Shown here piece by piece: positions 31,649 through 63,197 of a stretch of 64,000 nucleotides of DNA; positions within the stretch are counted from its first letter, which is position 1, and every line of letters starts with the position of its first letter. The stretch is from Colwellia sp. MB3u-45 (lineage in GTDB: Bacteria; Pseudomonadota; Gammaproteobacteria; Enterobacterales; Alteromonadaceae). The notes under the pieces were generated by a model that was given only the letters and a program-made list of their open reading frames with translations, did not search any database and was not told the DNA's origin. Position numbers and translations under genes: made by a program. The stretch covers positions 1 through 64,000 of the forward strand of contig NZ_JACGVC010000051.1 of assembly GCF_014077005.1 (NCBI RefSeq), in the 5' to 3' direction.

Positions 31649-33085
31649 TCAATTTGTATTTGTATTTGTATTTTGCTCAACATTGGGAAATTTAACAGAA
31701 ACACAACATCCTTCGCCCAGTTGAGATTCAATTAACACCCGCCCCTTGTGCTTATCCATAATTGTTTTCACGATCGTCAAGCCAACCCCACTGCCTTTTG
31801 TAGTGGATAATCTTTCAAATAGGTCAAAAATTAATTGGTGATATTTTGGGTCAATACCTATGCCATTGTCCTTGATATGAAGGGTGGTAGCAGACGAAGT
31901 TTTTGTGGTAAATATCTCAATAATTAAAGGGCGGGCGGGCTCTAAGTAACGTAGTGCGTTACTCAATAAATTTAATATTACTTCAGAGAGTAAGCGCTCA
32001 TTCGCACTCACGGGATCTAAATTTTTAGCAACATTGATCCTCGCATTCGCTTCTCCAATCGCTTCTTCTAAAGCAAGACATTGCTGTTCAATCACGACGT
32101 TAACATTGACATTAGTGGTGGTAATAGCTTGTTGTACTATACGAGATAAGTCGAGTAAATCGGCTAATAGTAGCTCCATGTTATCAGCATTTTGTATAAT
32201 ACGGTTCAATCGATAGCTTTGCTTTTCTGTCAAGGTATCAACAAGTTCTGCTTGCAACTTTTGGCTAAATGCTGCGATGGTAACTAAAGGTGATTTAAGA
32301 TCGTGAGACACGGTGTAGATGAACTGCTCCATCTGCTTGTTCTTATTGATTAATTTTTTATTAAGTGTGGTAGCCTGACGTTTTTCTTTTTCCACATCTT
32401 GCATCACACTCAATAAAATGGCTTGTGAACGTGCCATATCAATTTCGTGACTTTCCATTTTGACATTGAGCGCCTTACTTAGCTCGAGGGCTGCTTGTTG
32501 CTTTTTAAAGAAAAATCGGATTATGGCCACTAAGGTGAGTAACAAGGCAACCATCACCAATAAACCCAACTTAAGGCTTCGATCGAGTAAATCAGACAAT
32601 TGGCTTGCAAATAAGGCAGAAAGTTTCTGGTATATCGCTTCTATTTCCAAATGAGACGGTTCGTCGTCGTAACTCAAATAACTACCAAGTTCACGCACGT
32701 TGGTATTTTTATCAAGTAAACTAGGCAGCAAAGTTAAGCGTTCTCGGTAAGCTGTCAGCATATCTCTAGTCCCTGGCATTTTTAGCTCGCCAAGGATTAA
32801 CCCACCTTGCAGCTCAATCTTATACAATTGAATGGTGGCTACACGTAAATTTTCCGAAGCTTTGTCGATATAGAGGCTATCTTCAGCGCGCAAAATAGCG
32901 TTTTTAAAATTATCGATTAAACCAACGAAGCCAATCTGGCTTTTAAGTTCATTGATCTCTGTATAAATCGCAACGCGCTTTTGATTTAACTCTTTTTGTT
33001 TTGACTCATAATCTAGGGCAATTAGCACTTCAAGTGTGATAAAGAACAACAGCAAGGTAGTCAGTACAGCATTTTTGGTATTCAT
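31649..33085 (-). CDS. Membrane sensor histidine kinase
   Basis: A 478-residue kinase. Helix 1 is at about 6-24 and helix 2 at about 172-192, enclosing a helical periplasmic domain of unknown ligand; a coiled coil follows. The H-box is YTVSHDLKSPLVTIAAF, the N-box NLLSNALRYLEPA, then IKDNGIGIDPK and TKGSGVGLTIVK for ATP binding. No receiver or DNA-binding domain is fused. GGAG precedes the ATG. It is the last gene of a four-gene minus-strand signalling cluster, 59 bp after an ethylene-receptor-like sensor gene. Its kinase module closely resembles that of the GAF kinase two genes upstream, suggesting duplication. The C-terminus is an NTNTNTN tail made by a 6-bp repeat. Confidence 0.9.
   Translation of the reverse strand: MNTKNAVLTTLLLFFITLEVLIALDYESKQKELNQKRVAIYTEINELKSQIGFVGLIDNFKNAILRAEDSLYIDKASENLRVATIQLYKIELQGGLILGELKMPGTRDMLTAYRERLTLLPSLLDKNTNVRELGSYLSYDDEPSHLEIEAIYQKLSALFASQLSDLLDRSLKLGLLVMVALLLTLVAIIRFFFKKQQAALELSKALNVKMESHEIDMARSQAILLSVMQDVEKEKRQATTLNKKLINKNKQMEQFIYTVSHDLKSPLVTIAAFSQKLQAELVDTLTEKQSYRLNRIIQNADNMELLLADLLDLSRIVQQAITTTNVNVNVVIEQQCLALEEAIGEANARINVAKNLDPVSANERLLSEVILNLLSNALRYLEPARPLIIEIFTTKTSSATTLHIKDNGIGIDPKYHQLIFDLFERLSTTKGSGVGLTIVKTIMDKHKGRVLIESQLGEGCCVSVKFPNVEQNTNTNTN
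31654..31671. repeat. Hexanucleotide repeat encoding the kinase C-terminal tail
   Basis: TTGTAT occurs three times in a row and encodes the Asn-Thr repeats just before the stop codon of the minus-strand kinase. Unit gain or loss would keep the frame and change only tail length. Confidence 0.85.
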
Positions 33086-33144
33086 TTATACTCCTGACAA
33101 TAATGGCTCAGCATAAATAGCTTTAGCATAAGTATTTTTTTTCA

Positions 33145-33693
33145 TTAAACATCGTAGCTCTTTGCTCGATCGAGTTCGCTCATTAGCGCATTCACTTCTT
33201 TTTTCAACTCAAGTATCCGATCCTCTCGGTCAAGTGTGACTGAATAAATTGAGCTCATTTGCTTGTTTTTTTGTTTTATCACTTCAAGCTCTGCCATAGC
33301 GCTATGATATTTGACTTCCACACCTGGTAATCGGATAAGCTGAGGTAGTTTAGGCGCCAAGACAATCGCGGTTAAAATAGAGGTAAAAGCGGTCAAGGCT
33401 TTTATCCAACCTTGATATTCATAAGCGGGATACCAAGTGACATAAATCGCCACAAAATGTGTGGTACCACAAAAGAAAATAAACGCCATAAATAAGGCAA
33501 ATATGTCTTTGTGTGGCACGCTTTCTTTGCGTTTATACAGCAATATACCGATAATAAGGGTGATCAGATAATACGCAACACCAATGGTGATATCGGCTGT
33601 CACGTGGGTCCATAATATGTCAGGTCGCCAAAGGTAACAGTGTCCGTGAGGCATAAAATTGGGGTTAGCGAATTGTTGCAACCATTCGTTCAT
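33145..33693 (-). CDS. Stand-alone ethylene-receptor-like (ETR1-type) membrane sensor protein
   Basis: A 182-residue membrane protein. I start at the second ATG (33693), which has AAAGGA at a workable distance; ATG 33699 abuts the RBS. It begins with MPHGHCYLWRPDILWTHV, then three helices at about 32-52, 63-80 and 97-115, the second and third spanning FIFFCGTTHFVAIYVTWYP and GWIKALTAFTSILTAIVLAP. This is the plan of the ETR1/SynEtr1 ethylene-binding domain. D34, C75 and H79 fall where ETR1 has Asp25, Cys65 and His69; the last two bind Cu(I). After TM3 there is only a coiled coil (about 125-180), with no kinase, GAF or receiver domain. It sits between two histidine kinase genes, so it probably signals through one in trans. 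Family resemblance is strong; ligand (ethylene, another small molecule, or copper state) is inference. Confidence 0.85.
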   Translation of the reverse strand: MNEWLQQFANPNFMPHGHCYLWRPDILWTHVTADITIGVAYYLITLIIGILLYKRKESVPHKDIFALFMAFIFFCGTTHFVAIYVTWYPAYEYQGWIKALTAFTSILTAIVLAPKLPQLIRLPGVEVKYHSAMAELEVIKQKNKQMSSIYSVTLDREDRILELKKEVNALMSELDRAKSYDV

Positions 33694-33722
33694 CTGCATT
33701 CCTTTTATGGCTTATTTAATTG

Positions 33723-33749
33723 ATTGTTATTGTTATTGTTATTGTTATT
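33723..33749. repeat. Hexanucleotide repeat upstream of the ETR-like gene
   Basis: ATTGTT is repeated four times plus ATT in the 72-bp gap between the GAF kinase stop and the ETR-like start. Copy-number change would alter spacing in the leader or intercistronic region. Confidence 0.88.
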
Positions 33750-33765
33750 AGTAAAATGATAGTGG

Positions 33766-35001
33766 TTACGTTTTAGGGAAACGCAGTTCAAAGCAACTAC
33801 CCTGACCTAATTCAGACACTAAGCTTACCGAGCCATTATGTTTTTCCATGGCGGCTTTAACTAGACTCAAACCAATACCTGTGCCTTGGCCTGGATTAAT
33901 TTGCTCAAAGACATTAAAAACACGTTTATGATCGCTTTTTGCTATGCCTATGCCATTGTCACTAATAAACAAAGAGACTGAAGCTTCCAACTCTTCGGTA
34001 TGAATTTTTAATGTTAAATCGCGCTCAGCACTTCGGTACCGAATGGCATTACTTAACAAATTATCAATGCATTGAGACAACAGGGTTTGATTAGCCCCGA
34101 TGGCGTGCAGCGGCTTGGTTAACACCAATTCGACCTCCACCTCTTTGTACCCTGTTATCAATCTTTGCCAATTTTGCTCAATCAGCGTGGTGAGATCAAT
34201 CGGCGCTTTGCTTATTTCAGCTTTCATGACTCTTGAAAGCTCTAATAAATTAGTCAACAAATCCCCCATATGAGTTAAATTTTCAAGTATTCTTTGAAAA
34301 CGATGTTTCTGCTTTTCCGTGGTATGAGCTGATAACTCTTTGGCTAACATACTGGTGAAACCATTGATGGTCACCAAAGGCGATTTCAAATCATGGGATA
34401 CGGTATAGACAAACTGCTCTAGCTCTTTGTTTTTTACTTCTAAGCTTTTAGTTAATAACAGCGATTGCTCCAATGACCGTGATTGCGCCAAAAGATCATG
34501 TTGAATTCGCCCCGCTTTTCTCAGTTCTAATTGCGTAACCACTTGTTGAGCAATAATGATCAACTGCTTTTTTTGTAGTGCGGTCAAGTATGATGGTTTA
34601 TTGTCGATAACACACAAGGTGCCTAATCGCAGGCCACTAGGTGTTACTAGAGGCGCTCCGGCATAAAAAATCACTTGCGTGGGCCCAGTCACTAAGGGGT
34701 TATCATGAAAACGCTGGTCTTTGCGGCTGTCTTGTATTTCAAATAATTCATCATGGTGAATAGCATGCGCGCAAAAAGCAATCTCGCGCGGTGTTTCTTG
34801 CGCGTCAAGCCCGTGATGAGACTTAAACCATTGTCGCTTTTCATCAATTAAAGAAATCAAAGCAATGGGTGTACCGCAAACACTAGACGCTAGATCGGTT
34901 AGCTGATCATAAGCCTGCTCTGCTAGCGTATCTAAAATGTTATACTCATCCAAAGCGTTTAGACGAGCCAATTCATTATTGGGTATTGCCGCTGATTTCA
35001 T
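33766..35001 (-). CDS. GAF-domain histidine kinase (cytoplasmic)
   Basis: A 411-residue soluble kinase. The N-terminal GAF domain (about 10-160) includes ALISLIDEKRQWFKSHHGL, FCAHAI and GLRLGTLCVID, a common diguanylate cyclase/kinase-associated GAF subtype. The kinase part has H-box YTVSHDLKSPLVTINGF, N-box DNLLSNAIRYRS, ISDNGIGIAKS and GQGTGIGLSLVKAA. No membrane segment is present. Plant and cyanobacterial ethylene receptors have a GAF domain between sensor and kinase; here GAF-kinase and ETR-like sensor are separate neighbouring genes. Partners are unproven. Confidence 0.9.
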   Translation of the reverse strand: MKSAAIPNNELARLNALDEYNILDTLAEQAYDQLTDLASSVCGTPIALISLIDEKRQWFKSHHGLDAQETPREIAFCAHAIHHDELFEIQDSRKDQRFHDNPLVTGPTQVIFYAGAPLVTPSGLRLGTLCVIDNKPSYLTALQKKQLIIIAQQVVTQLELRKAGRIQHDLLAQSRSLEQSLLLTKSLEVKNKELEQFVYTVSHDLKSPLVTINGFTSMLAKELSAHTTEKQKHRFQRILENLTHMGDLLTNLLELSRVMKAEISKAPIDLTTLIEQNWQRLITGYKEVEVELVLTKPLHAIGANQTLLSQCIDNLLSNAIRYRSAERDLTLKIHTEELEASVSLFISDNGIGIAKSDHKRVFNVFEQINPGQGTGIGLSLVKAAMEKHNGSVSLVSELGQGSCFELRFPKT

Positions 35002-35076
35002 CTTTTTAGTTCACTCGGTTTAGTATTGACTTGTATGCTTAATATTGCGTCACATGATAAAGCGCCGCTTGGGTGA

Positions 35077-36780
35077 TTAACTTTGTTCAAGTAACTTTGC
35101 CTCTAACAAATCCGCTGGCATAGGCCGACCCAGTAAGTAACCTTGTATTTTGTCAATTTTCAACTTATGGCATAAAGCCAACTGACTGTCTGTTTCAATC
35201 CCCTCGGCAACAACGGTAAAATTGAGTAATTTCAGCATATGGGTGACCGCTTCCAACAAACATTTTTTAGTGCTGGCATCCGATTCATTTTTCTGTAGTG
35301 ATTTATCCAGTTTAACAATGTCAATCGGGAAATTGTTCAAATGGGCGATGGAGGAAAATCCCATGCCAAAGTCGTCTAAGGCAATTTTAAAGCCTAGTGA
35401 TGAAAGCGAATGCAGCGTATCTCGCGTCACCTCGTCATCTTCTAGTAATGCTGTTTCAGTAATTTCTAAGACAATGGTTTCGGGAAAAATACCATGCTCT
35501 TCGGTTTTAATTTTAATTTTTTGCGTCAATTGAGCATCCTGCAATTGCAGCGCTGAAATGTTAATTGCCATGGTAAAGTTAGGATCAAAACGCTTTTGCC
35601 ATGAGGCTAATTCAGTTAAGGCGGCATTAATAACCCACTGTCCTAAGTCATGAATTAAACGTGTTTCCTCTGCAATAGGAATAAACTCATCGGGTGTATA
35701 AAATTTTGGTGTATCAGGCCATCTAATCAGCGCTTCGACACCTTGTATTTTTTCGTTATGGGCAGAAAAAACCGGTTGATAGAATAACCTGAACGAAGAT
35801 TCTCTGAGAATGTCACTGATTTCACTTTGGATTAGGAAGCGACGGTTCAACTCATCCTGATAGTGTGACTGATAAAAGCGTAATGAGTTTTTACCGTTTT
35901 GCTTTGCTCGGTACATCGCGATATCAGCACACTTGACCAATTTATGACGGCTATCAGCATCATTAGGATACAAAGCGGCGCCAATACTTACCGTGCAATT
36001 GATGCGTTGGCCATCAATGTAGAAAGGTTCTTGCACTGACTTTAAGATGCGATTACCAATCATGTTAACTTCTTCAACCGAATGTATATTCGCCAAGGTG
36101 ATAGCAAATTCGTCACCACCGAGTCGTGCAAAGCCATCGTTATCTCGGAGATATTTTTTGGCTCGAGCAACCCATTCAACCAATAATTGGTCTCCTGCAT
36201 CATGACCTAAGGTATCATTAACGTACTTAAAGTTGTCTAAATCCAGCGCTAACATGCCCACTGAGACCTTCAGTCGTTTGCTATTGGCAATCATGAACTT
36301 AAGTGTCTCATCAAAATAGTAACGGTTATGCAAGCCAGTTAACTGGTCATTTTCCGCCATGTTTTTTACGGCTAGGTAGCTTTGATGCATTCTTTGTTCC
36401 ATCTCAAAGCGCTTAGTTGAATGAATAATCGCTTGATGGAGTTTAATATATGAAACATCACTTTTAGGGATAAAGTCTTGCGCACCCGCCTCAATGCAAT
36501 TAAGCGCGATTGATGAGCCTTGCGCTGCACTGATAACAATGATGGCAGTATTGCCTAAGTTGGGGCGGGAACGTATTTCGATAATCATTTCAATGCCATT
36601 AACTTCAGGCATGTGATAATCCAGCAAAATAATGTCGAAGGATTCGGCATCCATCATCGCAAGACCGCTGGCAACAGAGTCGGCGTATTTCACTTCATAA
36701 TTATTTTGCAAAGACGAGGTTAGCGCTCTTTTAACGATCGCCATATCTATTTCGTCATCATCAACAATTAGTATTTTCAT
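35077..36780 (-). CDS. Response regulator with GGDEF and EAL domains (c-di-GMP turnover)
   Basis: A REC-GGDEF-EAL protein of about 567 residues. I choose ATG 36780 (MKILIVDDDEIDM), because the upstream in-frame extension lacks domain sequence. The receiver (1-125) has phosphoacceptor Asp in DIILLDYHMPEVNG. The cyclase domain has an intact RLGGDEF with an inhibitory I-site RDND five residues before GGDEF. The phosphodiesterase domain has GVEALIRW, NISALQLQD, DDFGMGFSS and GYLLGRPMP, so both activities look possible. It is first in the minus-strand signalling cluster and likely converts phosphorylation by the adjacent kinases into c-di-GMP changes affecting motility or biofilm. Confidence 0.93.
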   Translation of the reverse strand: MKILIVDDDEIDMAIVKRALTSSLQNNYEVKYADSVASGLAMMDAESFDIILLDYHMPEVNGIEMIIEIRSRPNLGNTAIIVISAAQGSSIALNCIEAGAQDFIPKSDVSYIKLHQAIIHSTKRFEMEQRMHQSYLAVKNMAENDQLTGLHNRYYFDETLKFMIANSKRLKVSVGMLALDLDNFKYVNDTLGHDAGDQLLVEWVARAKKYLRDNDGFARLGGDEFAITLANIHSVEEVNMIGNRILKSVQEPFYIDGQRINCTVSIGAALYPNDADSRHKLVKCADIAMYRAKQNGKNSLRFYQSHYQDELNRRFLIQSEISDILRESSFRLFYQPVFSAHNEKIQGVEALIRWPDTPKFYTPDEFIPIAEETRLIHDLGQWVINAALTELASWQKRFDPNFTMAINISALQLQDAQLTQKIKIKTEEHGIFPETIVLEITETALLEDDEVTRDTLHSLSSLGFKIALDDFGMGFSSIAHLNNFPIDIVKLDKSLQKNESDASTKKCLLEAVTHMLKLLNFTVVAEGIETDSQLALCHKLKIDKIQGYLLGRPMPADLLEAKLLEQS

Positions 36781-37000
36781 TTTTGATCTCATCCCTGTAT
36801 GTATATTTGCTTTAAAACCTATTAACAAGGCTATTTAAAACTTTTGCAAAATCAGATCATATTAAGCGTGTATTGAAAGCCTTTTTTTCAAAATTAAAGC
36901 TGGGTTTGGCTAAATACGCAAAATATATTCTGATCCATTACGGGTAGTACTTTAGATCGCTCAATGCCTATTTCACACAAATTTTTCGCTGTGATATGTT

Positions 37001-37033
37001 TAGACATTATCAATATAAGTTGATAATGTCTAA
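37001..37033. promoter_or_regulatory. 13-bp perfect inverted repeat in the divergent signalling promoter
   Basis: TAGACATTATCAA (37001-37013) and TTGATAATGTCTA (37021-37033) are separated by 7 bp, midway between the divergent REC-GGDEF-EAL and REC-kinase genes. It could be a regulator-binding site or a hairpin in a leader; no known consensus was recognised. Confidence 0.65.
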
Positions 37034-37149
37034 GTATATTTTATATATAAATCGCTTTATATGTGTATATTTTGTATCTGATTTGTAAACACTTTGTGTT
37101 TGAATTATGTACAAGGTATTTGGATTAATGACCACGGATAACACTTGAT

Positions 37150-38220
37150 ATGAAAGTGATAGTAATAGAAGATAACCCCGATCATTTTGAGATTATTGAA
37201 GATACATTTGCGTCTATTACTTCAATACAGGCTCAAGTTGTTCGAGCTGAAACTTTAGCAGCCGGAAAATCACTGTTGTTTTCTGAGCACTTTGATATCT
37301 GCTTGTGCGACTTACAGCTTCCTGACTCAACAATAGCACAAACAGTAGAGTGGTTAAGTTCACAAACCCATCCATTGCCTATGGTAACATTGACCTCACT
37401 ACACAGCATTGAAATAGCCCAAAACTTACTCCATAAGGGCGTGCAAGACTATCTATCTAAAGACGAACTGACCGCACAATTACTCTACAAAACCTGCCAG
37501 TATGCTATTGAACGTTTCAGACACCAACAGGAAGCCACTAGATATAATCAAGACATGCAAGTATTCTGTGACAGTTTATCGCACGATTTCAATGGCCACA
37601 TTAACCGTATTAAAGGTGTCTCCAGAGCATTAAAGTCAGATTTGATGGAAAGAACCAGTTGCACAGCAGATGAATTGCAATGGTTTGATTATCTTGAAAC
37701 AAGTACCTCAGAAGTACAAAACTTAGTCTCTGACTTGCAAAGTTACTTATCGGTTGGCTATGTAAACCAGAGCTTTGAAACGGTCTGTTTGAAGTTGGTC
37801 GTCAAAAAAGTAGTGGCTTCCCTAAAAAGCGCTCTGCAAATTGATTTCGAAGCTAATATGCCAAACGAACTTGCAACCATTTCAGGCAACCCTGCGTTGT
37901 TGCAACTGCTGTTCCAAAATCTTATTGCTAACAGCATAAAGTTCAATAATAACCGACCAATTATCGACATAACGATGCAAGATAATGGTAATTATATTGA
38001 TATTATTTTACAGGATAATGGCATTGGATTTAATCCAATACACGCCCAAAAAATATTCTCGCCGTTTAATCGACTGGCTAATGGTAAGAAGTTTTCAGGC
38101 TCTGGCTTAGGCTTAAGTATCGTTAAGCGAATCGTTGCACACCACGATGGCAGTATCGAAGCAGACTCAGTATTAGGCGTAGGTAGTAAATTCACCCTTA
38201 AATTCAAAAAAGAAGCATAA
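37150..38220 (+). CDS. Soluble hybrid: N-terminal receiver plus histidine kinase
   Basis: A 356-residue cytoplasmic protein. The receiver (1-120) has IEDNPDHFE and phosphoacceptor Asp in CLCDLQLPDS. The kinase part has an unusual H-box, DSLSHDFNGHINRIKGV, where most kinases have HDLR/K-P; then NLIANSIKFNN, LQDNGIGFNP and GSGLGLSIVKRIV for ATP binding. A receiver in front of a kinase suggests regulation by phosphate from another kinase, such as those encoded divergently. The Rcp1-like regulator gene follows after 73 bp, probably co-transcribed. Confidence 0.9.
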   Translation: MKVIVIEDNPDHFEIIEDTFASITSIQAQVVRAETLAAGKSLLFSEHFDICLCDLQLPDSTIAQTVEWLSSQTHPLPMVTLTSLHSIEIAQNLLHKGVQDYLSKDELTAQLLYKTCQYAIERFRHQQEATRYNQDMQVFCDSLSHDFNGHINRIKGVSRALKSDLMERTSCTADELQWFDYLETSTSEVQNLVSDLQSYLSVGYVNQSFETVCLKLVVKKVVASLKSALQIDFEANMPNELATISGNPALLQLLFQNLIANSIKFNNNRPIIDITMQDNGNYIDIILQDNGIGFNPIHAQKIFSPFNRLANGKKFSGSGLGLSIVKRIVAHHDGSIEADSVLGVGSKFTLKFKKEA

Positions 38221-38293
38221 AAAGATTAATATTTAACGTATCAACAATGGGCTAATTTATCTTTAAAAAACCCAAACCAACAAGGAGACAAGT

Positions 38294-38737
38294 GTGGATG
38301 ATTTTAAACCTATTTCGGCATTAATGGTGGAAGACAATATCGATCATGCAGAGCTGATGATGGATGCTTTCAACGATTTTAATATTAAAAATACCATAGC
38401 ACATGTCATAGACGGTGAGCAGGCTATTGCCTATCTAAAAAACGCAGCACCTTATGAGAACAGGAGTAAATTTACCCGTCCAGATATTGTTTTTTTAGAT
38501 ATTAGAATGCCCAGACAAGGCGGTATTGAAACGCTAAAAATAATGAAAGCCGATGATGACCTGTGCAGTATTCCGGTTGTGATGATAAGTACCTCAAAAA
38601 CGGAGCCAGAAATAAAAGAGTGTTATCGTTTAGGTGCTAGTGGCTATATTACTAAACCACTGAAATTCGATGACTTTTCGAAAAAAATGAAGGAATTAAA
38701 CTACTATTGGGTACTAACATCTGAGTTACCAAAATAA
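38294..38737 (+). CDS. Rcp1-like single-domain response regulator
   Basis: A 147-residue receiver-only protein. The GTG start at 38294 is chosen because AAGGAG lies six bases upstream. Conserved positions are VEDNIDHAE (acidic pair), phosphoacceptor Asp in DIVFLDIRMPRQGG, STSKTE (Thr/Ser) and TKPLKF (Lys). Sequence pattern resembles cyanobacterial Rcp1, the partner of phytochrome kinases. It has no output domain and may shuttle phosphate or act by protein contact. A terminator follows. Confidence 0.9.
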   Translation: MDDFKPISALMVEDNIDHAELMMDAFNDFNIKNTIAHVIDGEQAIAYLKNAAPYENRSKFTRPDIVFLDIRMPRQGGIETLKIMKADDDLCSIPVVMISTSKTEPEIKECYRLGASGYITKPLKFDDFSKKMKELNYYWVLTSELPK

Positions 38738-58398: not shown

Positions 58399-60333
58399 AT
58401 GAGTATATTTCAACATTTCCAATCACGTTACGACGAAGCACAAGAAGAGTGCTATTCAATTCAAGACTTTCTTAGTCTATGTCGTCATGATCCTATGGCC
58501 TATGCTAGCGCAGCGCAGCGTTTGTTAAAAGCCATTGGCAAGCCAGACATGATAGATACTTCAAATGAGCCCTGTTTAAGCCGAATTTTCTCCAACCGGG
58601 TTATTGCCCGTTATCCCGCTTTTAAAGATTTTTATGGAATGGAGGAAGCCATAGAGCAAATTGTGGCCTATTTAACTCACGCTTCACAAGGCTTAGAAGA
58701 ACAGAAACAAATTCTCTATTTACTTGGCCCCGTTGGTGGCGGTAAGTCGTCATTGGCTGAAAAGTTAAAAGCGTTAATACAGCAAGAGCCAATTTATGTC
58801 CTGAGTGCAAACGGCAAACGCAGCCCAGTCAATGATCATCCTTTTTGTTTATTTGATGCCAATGCAGACGGAAAGATATTGCAACAAGAATACAATATAC
58901 CTGCACGTTACCTCAGTACCATCATGTCACCTTGGATTGCAAAACGTTTGCACGAGTTCAAAGGTGATATAGCAAAATTTGAAGTGATAAAAATTTATCC
59001 TTCCATTCTTGACCAAATTGCCGTGGCTAAAACAGAGCCTGGGGATGACAACAACCAAGATATTTCTGCGCTGGTCGGTAAAGTAGATATTCGCCAATTA
59101 GAGCACTTTGCCCAGAATGATCCTGATGCCTATAGTTACTCAGGTGCTTTATGTCGTGCCAATCAAGGATTAATGGAATTTGTTGAAATGTTTAAGGCAC
59201 CTATTAAAGTATTACATCCGCTTTTAACCGCCACACAAGAAGGTAACTACAATCCGACCGAAGGCCTTTCCGCCCTGCCATTTAATGGTATTTTACTGGC
59301 CCACTCCAATGAGTCTGAATGGACAACCTTTAGAAACAATAAAAACAATGAAGCCTTTTTAGACCGAGTTTATATTGTCAAAGTACCTTACTGTATGCGC
59401 GTTTCTGAAGAAGTAAAAATTTATCGAAAACTATTAGAAAATAGTGAATTAAATCATGCCCAATGCGCACCAGACACCTTAGAAACCTTAGCCCAATTCT
59501 CAGTGCTTTCACGCTTAAAAGAACCAGAAAATTCAAGCATATATTCTAAGATGCGCGTGTACGACGGCGAAAGCTTAAAAGATACCGACCCCAAAGCAAA
59601 GTCATATCAAGAGTATCGAGATTATGCCGGTATTGACGAAGGTATGTCAGGGCTTTCAACACGTTTTGCCTTTAAAATATTATCTCGTGTTTTCAACTTT
59701 GATCATTTAGAAGTGGCGGCAAATCCGGTGCATTTGTTTTACGTACTTGAGCAGCAAATAGAACGAGAGCAACTACCCAAAGAGATCAGTGAGCGTTATC
59801 TAGCCTTTATCAAAGGTTACTTATCACCACAATATATTGAGTTTATCGGTAAAGAAATTCAGACCGCTTATTTAGAGTCCTATTCTGAATATGGCCAAAA
59901 TATATTTGATCGTTATGTGACTTACGCTGATTTTTGGATCCAAGACCAAGAATATCGTGATGCTGAAACCGGGCAACTATTTGACCGTGAAGCACTGAAT
60001 AATGAGCTAGAAAAAATAGAAAAACCTGCGGGGATCAGTAATCCAAAAGATTTTAGAAATGAAATTGTTAACTTTGTCCTGCGTGCAAAAGCCAATAATA
60101 ATGGTAAAAATCCTTTATGGACTAGCTACGAAAAATTGCGCACCGTTATTGAGAAAAAAATGTTTTCAAATACCGAAGACTTATTGCCTGTGATTTCATT
60201 TAACAATAAAACCTCCAACGATGATCAACAAAAGCATGATGATTTCGTTGAACGCATGATGACTAAGGGCTACACAAAAAAACAAGTCAGATTACTTTCT
60301 GAATGGTATTTACGCGTTAGAAAATCTTCTTAG
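58399..60333 (+). CDS. yeaG: PrkA/YeaG serine protein kinase
   Basis: A 644-residue AAA+ protein of the PrkA family. The AAA domain has LLGPVGGGKSSLAEKLK (about 112-128) and GILLAHSNESEW; the C-terminal part (about 370-640) resembles the kinase region (RDYAGIDEGMSGLSTRF, EYRDAETGQLFDREALNNEL). In enterobacteria yeaG is induced in stationary phase and nitrogen starvation and acts in stress adaptation. It heads the conserved operon with yeaH (33 bp downstream) and ycgB. Confidence 0.95.
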   Translation: MSIFQHFQSRYDEAQEECYSIQDFLSLCRHDPMAYASAAQRLLKAIGKPDMIDTSNEPCLSRIFSNRVIARYPAFKDFYGMEEAIEQIVAYLTHASQGLEEQKQILYLLGPVGGGKSSLAEKLKALIQQEPIYVLSANGKRSPVNDHPFCLFDANADGKILQQEYNIPARYLSTIMSPWIAKRLHEFKGDIAKFEVIKIYPSILDQIAVAKTEPGDDNNQDISALVGKVDIRQLEHFAQNDPDAYSYSGALCRANQGLMEFVEMFKAPIKVLHPLLTATQEGNYNPTEGLSALPFNGILLAHSNESEWTTFRNNKNNEAFLDRVYIVKVPYCMRVSEEVKIYRKLLENSELNHAQCAPDTLETLAQFSVLSRLKEPENSSIYSKMRVYDGESLKDTDPKAKSYQEYRDYAGIDEGMSGLSTRFAFKILSRVFNFDHLEVAANPVHLFYVLEQQIEREQLPKEISERYLAFIKGYLSPQYIEFIGKEIQTAYLESYSEYGQNIFDRYVTYADFWIQDQEYRDAETGQLFDREALNNELEKIEKPAGISNPKDFRNEIVNFVLRAKANNNGKNPLWTSYEKLRTVIEKKMFSNTEDLLPVISFNNKTSNDDQQKHDDFVERMMTKGYTKKQVRLLSEWYLRVRKSS

Positions 60334-60366
60334 GTTGTACTTAGTACCTCTAAGTAAGGAGCATAA

Positions 60367-61647
60367 ATGACAAACTTTATCGATAGGCGATTAAATAGTA
60401 AAAACAAAAGCACGGTCAACCGACAGCGCTTTATCAGACGTTATAAAAGCCAAATTAAACAGGCTGTTTCTGAGGCGGTCAATAAACGTGGCGTCACTGA
60501 TATAACCAGTGGTGAAAATATTACCATCACTAAAAAAGATTTAAATGAGCCAGTTTTTCATCAAGGTAGTGGTGGCATTAAAGACCGCGTTTATCCAGGT
60601 AACGACCAGTTTACCAGTGGCGATCACATTGCTCGGCCACCACAACAGCAAGAGCAAGAGCAAGGCGGCCAAGGTGATGCAAGTGATTCTGGCGAAGGCG
60701 ATGATGACTTTGTCTTCACTATTTCCAAAGATGAATATCTACATTTACTTTTTGAAGATTTAGAGTTGCCTAACTTAGAAAAAAATAAGTTAGATAAAGT
60801 CACTAATTATAAAACGGTGCGTGCGGGTTATTGCGCTGAAGGCGCCGCTTCCAATATCGATATTGTGAAATCATTACAAGGCTCAATAGCGCGCAGAATT
60901 GCCATGACCGCGGATAAACGCCGTAAACTTAAAACACTCGAAGCTGAGTTAACCTTGCTAGAGCAAGATAGACACGATAACACTCTAGCTAAACATAAAC
61001 TTATTACGGCCATTGGCAATCTTAAAGAGAAAATCAGTAAAGTCCCTTTTATTGACTCCTTTGATTTACGTTATCGTCATTACGCCAAACAAGCGCTGCC
61101 AACATCAAAAGCGGTGATGTTTTGTATAATGGATGTCTCAGGTTCGATGGATCAAGCCACTAAAGATATTGCTAAACGTTTTTATATTCTTTTATACCTA
61201 TTTTTAACGCGTACTTATAAAACCATCGACGTGGTTTATATTCGTCACCATACCCAAGCAAAAGAAGTTGACGAACATGAGTTTTTTTATTCGCAAGAAA
61301 CTGGCGGTACCATCGCATCAAGTGCTTTAGAGCTAATGATTGAGATAATGACACAGCGCTATAATGAAAAAGAATGGAATGTTTATGGCGCTCAAGCGTC
61401 TGACGGCGATAATTGGGCCGATGACTCTCCGCACTGCCAGCAATTAATGCGCGAAAGTATACTGCCAAAAACCCGATACTTTAGTTATATAGAAATATCT
61501 CAGCGTGCTCATCAAAGCCTATGGCAACAATATGCTCAACTTGCTGATACCGATGATGCTTTTTCAATTGAGCACATTAAAACAGTAGCAGATATTTATC
61601 CGGTATTTAGAGCCTTATTCAAAAGAAAAAAAGTACAAGCCGCTTAG
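60367..61647 (+). CDS. yeaH: YeaH/YhbH-family protein (DUF444, VWA-like)
   Basis: A 426-residue cytoplasmic protein. N-terminal [21 protein letters not shown] and the disordered [20 protein letters not shown] stretch are typical. The C-terminal von Willebrand-like domain has the MIDAS-type [16 protein letters not shown] (about 255-270), then [19 protein letters not shown] and [13 protein letters not shown]. It is encoded between yeaG and ycgB (spacing 33 and 23 bp) and is thought to work with the PrkA kinase. Biochemical role not established. Confidence 0.95.
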
Positions 61648-61670
61648 GAATTCAATACATTGGAGCTTTT

Positions 61671-63197
61671 ATGACTAAACGTAAACCACTTGACGATAGC
61701 AGTGACTGGACATTTAATAAGCTTGAACAATACCAAAGTGAAATTGAGCGTGTTGCGCAACATTATCGTTTAGATACCTACACGAACCAAATTGAAGTGA
61801 TCACCGCCGAGCAAATGATGGACGCCTACGCGGGTGTCGGCATGCCTATTGGTTATAATCATTGGACCTTTGGTAAGAGGTTTATTCAAACCGAGCAAAC
61901 CTATAAACGCGGACAAATGGGCTTAGCTTATGAAATTGTTATTAACTCAGACCCCTGCATTGCGTATTTAATGGAAGAAAACACCATGGCGATGCAAGCC
62001 CTTGTTATGGCACATGCTTGTTATGGGCATAACTCATTTTTCAAAGGTAACTATTTATTTAAGTCATGGACAGACGCGAGCTCGATTATTGACTACTTAC
62101 TGTTTGCTAAAAAATATATTGCTGACTGCGAAAATAAACATGGTATTGACGAGGTTGAAGCTTGCCTTGATGCTTGCCATGCCCTAATGAATCATGGTGT
62201 TGACCGTTATAAACGACCACAAAAAATATCAATGGAAGCAGAACTAAAACGTCAAGAAGAACGTGAGACTTATCTGCAGTCACAAGTAAACATGTTGTGG
62301 CGAATTGGTGCAGATAATGAGACAGAAGGCAAAAAAATCAAGGCAACTTTTCCAACCGAGCCCCAGGAAAATATCCTTTATTTTATCGAGAAAAATGCCC
62401 CGCTATTAAAACCTTGGCAACGAGAATTAGTACGCATTGTCCGAAAAATTTCTCAGTACTTTTACCCTCAAAAGCAAACGCAAGTGATGAATGAAGGCTG
62501 GGCTTGTTTTTGGCACTACACTATCCTAAATCATCTCTACGATGAAGGCTTAGTAACAGATACCTTCATGCTGGAGTTTTTACATAACCATACTAATGTG
62601 GTTGCACAACTTGACTATAACAGCCGCTATTATTCAGGTATAAATCCCTATGCGCTAGGCTTTAATATGTTTATGGATATTAGGCGGATATGTGAAAATC
62701 CAAGCGAGGAAGACAAGCTTTGGTTTCCAGAAATAGCCGGCAGTAATTGGCTTGATACTGTGCATTTTGCTATGGAAAACTTTAAAGATGAAAGCTTTAT
62801 AAGCCAATTTTTATCACCAAAATTAATGCGAGATTTTAAACTATTTCATTTACACGATGACAGTGATAAGAACTATATTGAAGTGGGCGCTATTCATAAT
62901 CAAAGTGGCTATCAACAAATTCGAACTATGTTATCTGACCAATACAATTTAAGTAACCTAGAAGCAAATATCCAAATTTTTCATGCCGATGTCAGTGGCG
63001 ATCGTTCATTAACTTTACGCTATATTCCGCACCAAAAAATATCACTCGCTGACTCTAAAGATGAAGTATTAAAGCACTTATATTACCTGTGGAAGTTTGA
63101 TGTAAAGCTGCTGCAAGAGAATAAGTACGGGGTAGACGAAATTATTGCGCAATGCCCAGAGCCAGATGAGTTGGCAAAAAAAAAGGCAACTATTTAG
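61671..63197 (+). CDS. ycgB: SpoVR family protein YcgB
   Basis: A 508-residue protein of the SpoVR/YcgB family, found with PrkA and YeaH in many bacteria. Conserved segments: YAGVGMPIGYNHWTFGKRF, VMAHACYGHNSFFKGNYLF, LWRIGADNETEGKK, VMNEGWACFWHYTILNHLYD (HExxH-like region) and INPYALGFNMFMDIRRI. In E. coli the trio is RpoS-dependent. The 3' end overlaps a hairpin that terminates convergent fadR. Molecular function unknown. Confidence 0.95.
   Translation: MTKRKPLDDSSDWTFNKLEQYQSEIERVAQHYRLDTYTNQIEVITAEQMMDAYAGVGMPIGYNHWTFGKRFIQTEQTYKRGQMGLAYEIVINSDPCIAYLMEENTMAMQALVMAHACYGHNSFFKGNYLFKSWTDASSIIDYLLFAKKYIADCENKHGIDEVEACLDACHALMNHGVDRYKRPQKISMEAELKRQEERETYLQSQVNMLWRIGADNETEGKKIKATFPTEPQENILYFIEKNAPLLKPWQRELVRIVRKISQYFYPQKQTQVMNEGWACFWHYTILNHLYDEGLVTDTFMLEFLHNHTNVVAQLDYNSRYYSGINPYALGFNMFMDIRRICENPSEEDKLWFPEIAGSNWLDTVHFAMENFKDESFISQFLSPKLMRDFKLFHLHDDSDKNYIEVGAIHNQSGYQQIRTMLSDQYNLSNLEANIQIFHADVSGDRSLTLRYIPHQKISLADSKDEVLKHLYYLWKFDVKLLQENKYGVDEIIAQCPEPDELAKKKATI

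Follow-up and report, generated by a model that had tools for sequence, protein, structure and literature searches.

How can a receptor that carries no output domain of its own pass on a signal? The question is raised by a gene cluster of Colwellia sp. MB3u-45, at positions 31649–38737 of the 64,000-nucleotide stretch that we analysed (contig NZ_JACGVC010000051.1, positions 1–64,000 of the forward strand; the window hereafter). A 182-residue protein resembling the ethylene-binding domain of ETR1 is encoded there as a separate gene, beside genes for a GAF histidine kinase, a membrane histidine kinase, a REC-GGDEF-EAL protein, a REC-histidine kinase and a single-domain receiver. We favour, with somewhat better than even confidence, the explanation that this protein is a split ethylene-receptor-like sensor which would work through its C-terminal tail on the separate kinases.

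The sensor matches Pfam family PF25487 (ETR1_N) over residues 26–122 with an E value of 8e-29 (100.2 bits against a cut-off of 27). This is the sole family above its cut-off in the 182 residues, and there is no kinase in the same chain. An earlier reading made from the DNA letters (the sequence-only reading) had proposed an ETR1-type ethylene-binding domain with an Asp/Cys/His pocket and without GAF, kinase or receiver parts. Each of these proposals was borne out, with D34, C75 and H79 present in 6/6 sequences, that of the window included. These three residues align with what we take to be D25, C65 and H69 of ETR1, and Y41, I44 and I72 of the sensor with what are presumably Y32, I35 and I62; all six, which we assume to be needed in ETR1, are kept. 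Of 69 domains (the 70 distinct ones found in 96 hits in the loci examined, with the divergent L083 set aside) all 69 have Y41, 68 have H79, 67 have C75 and 64 have D34, and all four are kept in every one of the eight stand-alone domains that bear the tail. The same domain and pocket occur in ETR1 and in SynEtr1/AzoEtr1, and PMC12643061 names Asp, Cys and His as the Cu(I) site of ETR1.

The sensor is the only match to ETR1_N above the cut-off in its genome, and 14 control genomes gave none. NCBIfam returned no ethylene-type name and nothing over its cut-off for the sensor, no solved structure is related to it by sequence at E ≤ 1, and a phage origin was rejected since no PHROGs match was obtained at E ≤ 0.01. 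The predicted model, based on five sequences, is of low confidence (mean predicted local distance difference test score, pLDDT, 62.8). It places three membrane-length helices at residues 24–54, 61–87 and 94–120, followed by a single long helix at 123–173; residues 131–170 are the best-predicted stretch of the whole model (block pLDDT 73–80). A PHGxC motif lies N-terminal of helix 1 (residues 15–19, window 33637–33651) and is near-universal in these bacterial domains (H16 in 67/69, C19 in 68/69).

The split layout is found in six genomes: that of the window, Colwellia sp. C1TZA3 (L032), C. hornerae (L033), genome G130 (L037), Pseudocolwellia AS88 (L034) and Cognaticolwellia sediminilitoris (G091, L035). 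Kinase genes adjoin the sensor gene in 6/6, so that the ETR1-type match, the Cys/His pair and the kinase neighbourhood foreseen by the sequence-only reading all stand. Within the flanks examined, the six clusters occupy four different contexts: pgi and an NhaC-like gene flank the cluster in both the window and C1TZA3, a second set of neighbours is common to C. hornerae and G130, and the flanks of AS88 and of C. sediminilitoris match none of the others. ETR1_N itself is patchily distributed, occurring in 41 of 147 genomes of the family, five of which have it in a frame of 185–194 residues. In ten genomes of the same genus that are without the cluster (in six of them the absence of the sensor is judged from the tail search alone), the first 200 residues of the membrane kinase gave one weak match (21% identity, in a 1076-residue frame).

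In a tree of the 70 domains, built on few columns, the six split domains form a clade supported at 100/100 on a long stem of 1.19 changes per column. Six fused domains and L082, a distant stand-alone, fall with this clade in a larger group (97/86). A single origin of all stand-alone domains is neither favoured nor rejected by the tree: the label requires three changes on it, at least two of them on starred branches, a count that is partly owing to the divergent L083. Listed places above the cut-off but outside the 70-domain set lie in frames of at least 419 residues, save one 48-residue fragment (L063). Relatives also occur on plasmids, where 18 records match; among the five examined, the domain is fused with a kinase in four, while the fifth, an ethylene-type gene of an Acaryochloris plasmid (L214, 4483–7922), runs up to an IS1 transposase gene, on the far side of which lies a kinase gene.

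What sets the stand-alone sensors apart is their tail, the last 43 residues (140–182) of the window protein. It is present in 8/9 short stand-alone ethylene-type domains, the exception being L083, which is divergent, 138 residues long and without a tail. No tail was seen in 61 fused ethylene-type domains, read within stretches that often reached some 1.5 kb beyond the domain; one further along is possible. A motif script run on 93 sequences (610,639 bases, overlapping loci included) likewise placed the tail in stand-alone sensors only. A profile of six tails, searched against 98 relatives, recovered four stand-alone sensors at E ≤ 7.4e-20 and two weak matches (E 0.025 and 0.088), which by eye are other kinds of protein. 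In the distant stand-alones L081 and L082 the tail is followed by a kinase gene and then by a REC-PAS-GGDEF-EAL or a receiver gene.

The tail is not confined to the ethylene-type family. Fourteen of 321 genomes of the class have a match at E ≤ 0.01, at 15 places in total: the window, L082, eight at E ≤ 4.4e-7 and five that are weak and chance-like. The eight are multi-domain sensors. Six of them (PAS, some with Cache and GAF) lack a kinase and have the tail at their C-terminus; in four of these, L137, L139, L143 and L140, the next gene listed on the same strand encodes a kinase, at a distance of 814 bases in L140. In the other two of the eight (L138 and L142) the tail precedes a PocR domain and a kinase within one protein. 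A profile built from 14 tails matched 46 of 359 genomes of the phylum at E ≤ 1e-5. The 67 rows of this search comprise that of the window and 66 that merge into 60 open reading frames (ORFs), of which the best 40 were analysed: 22 are kinase-less and have the tail as their C-terminus, 15 have the tail and then a kinase in one ORF, and the remaining three comprise L188 and L197, with a kinase as the next gene, and L179, which is cut by a contig end. Among the 22, the adjoining gene encodes a kinase in 14 cases and the gene after it in six, while the remaining two lie at contig ends and show none. Outside the ethylene-type family the kinase-less proteins include Cache, PAS and GAF sensors. Neighbouring kinases were recognized with a profile made from 13 kinases, and all six checked against Pfam have HisKA and HATPase. 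These counts are raw; as a rough background, the GAF-kinase query found 34 places (three of them GAF only) in the 4.17-Mb genome from which the window comes. At L136 (6193–11177) the tail sensor is followed by a KaiC-like ATPase gene and then a PAS-GGDEF-EAL gene, and at L141 the next gene encodes a periplasmic binding protein. Six sensors (L183, L185, L193, L194, L198 and L201) carry the tail twice, once internally and again at the C-terminus.

We read the tail as a coupling helix that would join free sensors to separately encoded kinases. The sequence-only reading had spoken of kinases acting in trans, and this part gains comparative support because kinase-less sensors near kinase genes share the tail and because some fused proteins have it before the kinase; the contact itself we infer. 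Here the partner is probably the downstream membrane kinase, which is the first candidate because a kinase lies downstream in most other tail loci. Both flanking kinases may be clients, since a comparison of kinase regions within the genome pairs the GAF-kinase and the membrane kinase as reciprocal best matches (42%, the next best being 31–32%). A broader proposal, to which we give slightly less than an even chance, is that the tail is an unnamed portable docking helix of plug-in three-component systems, covering ethylene-type, Cache, PAS and GAF sensors, and that the one ethylene-type sensor here can serve two paralogous kinases. Two known identities for the tail were considered and rejected. 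It might have been a relic of a kinase dimerization helix, as KNKQM is alike in the sensor and the membrane kinase (E = 0.19), but the hhalign probability is 0.25%. It does not appear to be an S-helix either, its consensus having no ERT and its position often being C-terminal; this was judged by signature and place, not by profile.

The favoured mechanism would run as follows. Cu(I) together with ethylene, or another small pi-ligand, would alter the packing of the membrane part, and the change would travel along the long helix of the sensor. The tail, as a general coupling helix of kinase-less sensors, would dock on a separately encoded kinase, the membrane kinase being the first choice and the paralogous GAF-kinase a possible second client. 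Phosphate would next be handed on to the REC-kinase, to the single-domain receiver and, in clusters that encode it, to the REC-GGDEF-EAL enzyme. That the sensor binds ethylene, touches a kinase and has an output through cyclic diguanylate (c-di-GMP) are all steps that we infer from sequence.

The last of these steps had also been put forward by the sequence-only reading, and its support is weaker than that for kinases acting in trans. REC-GGDEF-EAL is encoded in 5/6 clusters but is absent from that of C. sediminilitoris, so c-di-GMP is not an obligatory output. Support for control of c-di-GMP comes from a fused counterpart in L045, L046 and L086, where genes for an ethylene-binding-domain kinase, a receiver and REC-GGDEF-EAL stand in a row; the last two were assigned by BLAST to the window genes, with Pfam applied to L046. 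C. sediminilitoris (G091) carries both the split and fused forms (L036, L046). The link has a precedent, since a diguanylate cyclase gene is reported beside GeiEtr2 of Geitlerinema (PMC6682694).

Several observations weigh against our explanation. The structure models of the sensor and of the membrane kinase are both poor, the latter having a helical N-terminus at a mean pLDDT of 54.7. The tail has no homology to a kinase dimerization helix detectable with hhalign, and each flanking kinase carries its own N-terminal input part. Four of the 28 kinase-less tail proteins (22 plus 6) have no kinase within two genes, namely L136, where the KaiC-like gene comes next, L141, on a 5.4-kb contig, and L190 and L206, at contig ends. 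Some strict kinase motifs are unmatched in the GAF-kinases of L033, L034, L035 and L037 and in the REC-kinase of L034. The C. sediminilitoris cluster, finally, dispenses with REC-GGDEF-EAL while keeping the other five genes.

Three other explanations have to be weighed. The architecture may be right and the ligand not ethylene, the domain responding to Cu(I) itself or to a different small pi-acceptor, for instance CO or some other alkene. The split domains do form a clade of their own on a long stem, none of the open-licence papers searched joins 'Colwellia' and 'ethylene receptor', and the PHGxC motif before helix 1 (C19 in 68/69) is presumably absent from plant ETR1. We nevertheless consider a different ligand rather unlikely, as the six residues that we take to be needed in ETR1 are all kept. 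Relatives from Synechocystis and Azospirillum, moreover, are functional ethylene receptors according to PMC6682694 and PMC11819568. Alternatively, the tail might only dimerize the sensor and never contact a kinase, the kinase genes being near through usual co-regulation. Coiled coils commonly dimerize, and the tail is predicted to lie within one long helix. The 61 fused domains, which presumably are dimers too, nonetheless lack it in the parts examined, and the invariance of alignment positions R17, E18, N29, L31 and Y41 across 14 diverse tails exceeds the need of a plain coiled coil; dimerization as the sole role is in our judgement improbable.

Least probable, and in our view very unlikely, is a stand-alone domain that has no action on the kinases, being a copper buffer or a remnant while the kinases obey their own inputs. 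That both kinases possess N-terminal parts of their own would fit such a role. However, the five sensor orthologues are 67–95% identical, compared with 53–82% for those of the membrane kinase, the sensor is retained in 6/6 clusters, and its tail is elsewhere found beside or ahead of kinases.

The coordinates of the cluster are collected in Table 1. All six genes were located where the sequence-only reading had described them; the strand of the sensor gene is corrected to minus, the plus strand having stops. The four minus-strand genes run in the order REC-GGDEF-EAL, GAF-kinase, sensor and membrane kinase, and gaps of ~59 to 75 bases suggest a single operon, opposite to which the REC-kinase and receiver genes run. 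The REC-GGDEF-EAL gene may start at an ATG near 36780 (~567 residues) instead of the TTG; its orthologues are 567–572 residues long. The H, N and G boxes of the kinases and the receiver Asp are present in the window genes, and the H, N, G1 and G2 motifs of the membrane kinase in 6/6 clusters. In the five clusters of six that have REC-GGDEF-EAL, RxxD...GGDEF, EALxR, DDFG and LEIT are all found; the receiver motif DxHMP is unmatched in AS88 and EGIET in C1TZA3 and AS88. The 147-residue receiver may be Rcp1-like, as the sequence-only reading had it. The palindrome AGACATTATCAA-N6-TTGATAATGTCT in the divergent intergenic region, a possible operator, is kept in C1TZA3, with one arm in C. hornerae and G130 and none in AS88. 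Elsewhere in the window, PrkA and SpoVR genes share one strand at 58399–63197, with one gene between them.

Table 1. Features of the split sensor cluster (positions in the window).
Feature	Position	Strand	Evidence or remark
Membrane histidine kinase, 478 residues, all-helical N-terminal part	31649–33085	-	HisKA and HATPase (Pfam)
Stand-alone ethylene-binding-type sensor, 182 residues	33145–33693	-	PF25487 ETR1_N, 8e-29; five orthologues
ETR1_N membrane domain, sensor residues 26–122	33328–33618	-	PF25487 match
Sensor tail, residues 140–182, RExRIxELKxEVNxL...Y, proposed coupling helix	33148–33276	-	Profile searches
Pocket codon D34	33592–33594	-	
Pocket codon C75	33469–33471	-	
Pocket codon H79	33457–33459	-	
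GAF histidine kinase, 411 residues	33766–35001	-	GAF, HisKA and HATPase (Pfam)
REC-GGDEF-EAL protein, 583 residues from TTG at 36828	35077–36828	-	REC, GGDEF and EAL (Pfam)
Palindrome AGACATTATCAA-N6-TTGATAATGTCT, divergent intergenic region	36993–37040		Perfect 12-base arms, 37002–37031; possible operator
REC-histidine kinase, 356 residues, divergent	37150–38220	+	REC and HATPase; HisKA below cut-off (Pfam)
Single-domain receiver, 147 residues	38294–38737	+	REC (Pfam); LDIRMP in 6/6

Ethylene-type domains are described as joined to kinases in PMC6682694 and PMC11819568; in the fused relatives examined, and in that of Synechocystis (PMC6682694), a kinase and further parts belong to one protein with the domain, whereas here it is a separate protein of 182 residues, with a tail that was not found in the fused ones. 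Among the titles and opening lines of abstracts in the open-licence literature no stand-alone ethylene-type sensor was seen, and the tail strings gave no match in that literature; both are weak evidence of absence. The closest likenesses lie in other systems. H-NOX also acts on a separate kinase, HnoK, which phosphorylates a c-di-GMP phosphodiesterase (PMC12329717), but H-NOX is a haem protein and the present sensor a membrane Cu-type domain with a helical tail; the six cluster proteins have no Pfam match to the haem H-NOX domain. The S-helix is likewise conserved, some 40 residues long, and situated between sensors and kinases, but it is nearly always flanked by a domain on each side and bears an ERT signature (PMC1592074), whereas the tail reads RExRIxELKxEVN and often ends the protein. 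In QseG-QseE a third protein adjusts a kinase; QseG, likened here by description only, is a lipoprotein with a reported periplasmic action. We regard the cluster as a known ETR1-type domain in a new split layout, with a coupling helix that is possibly unnamed.

If the sensor binds ethylene, the cluster would provide a natural experiment in which ethylene perception is separated from kinase output. Such coupling is hard to study in the plant receptors, because full-length ETR1 has resisted crystallization (PMC12643061). The tail would also serve as a sequence tag with which to trace the partner kinases of bacterial sensors that seem to lack an output, and as a short helix to try in receptor design.

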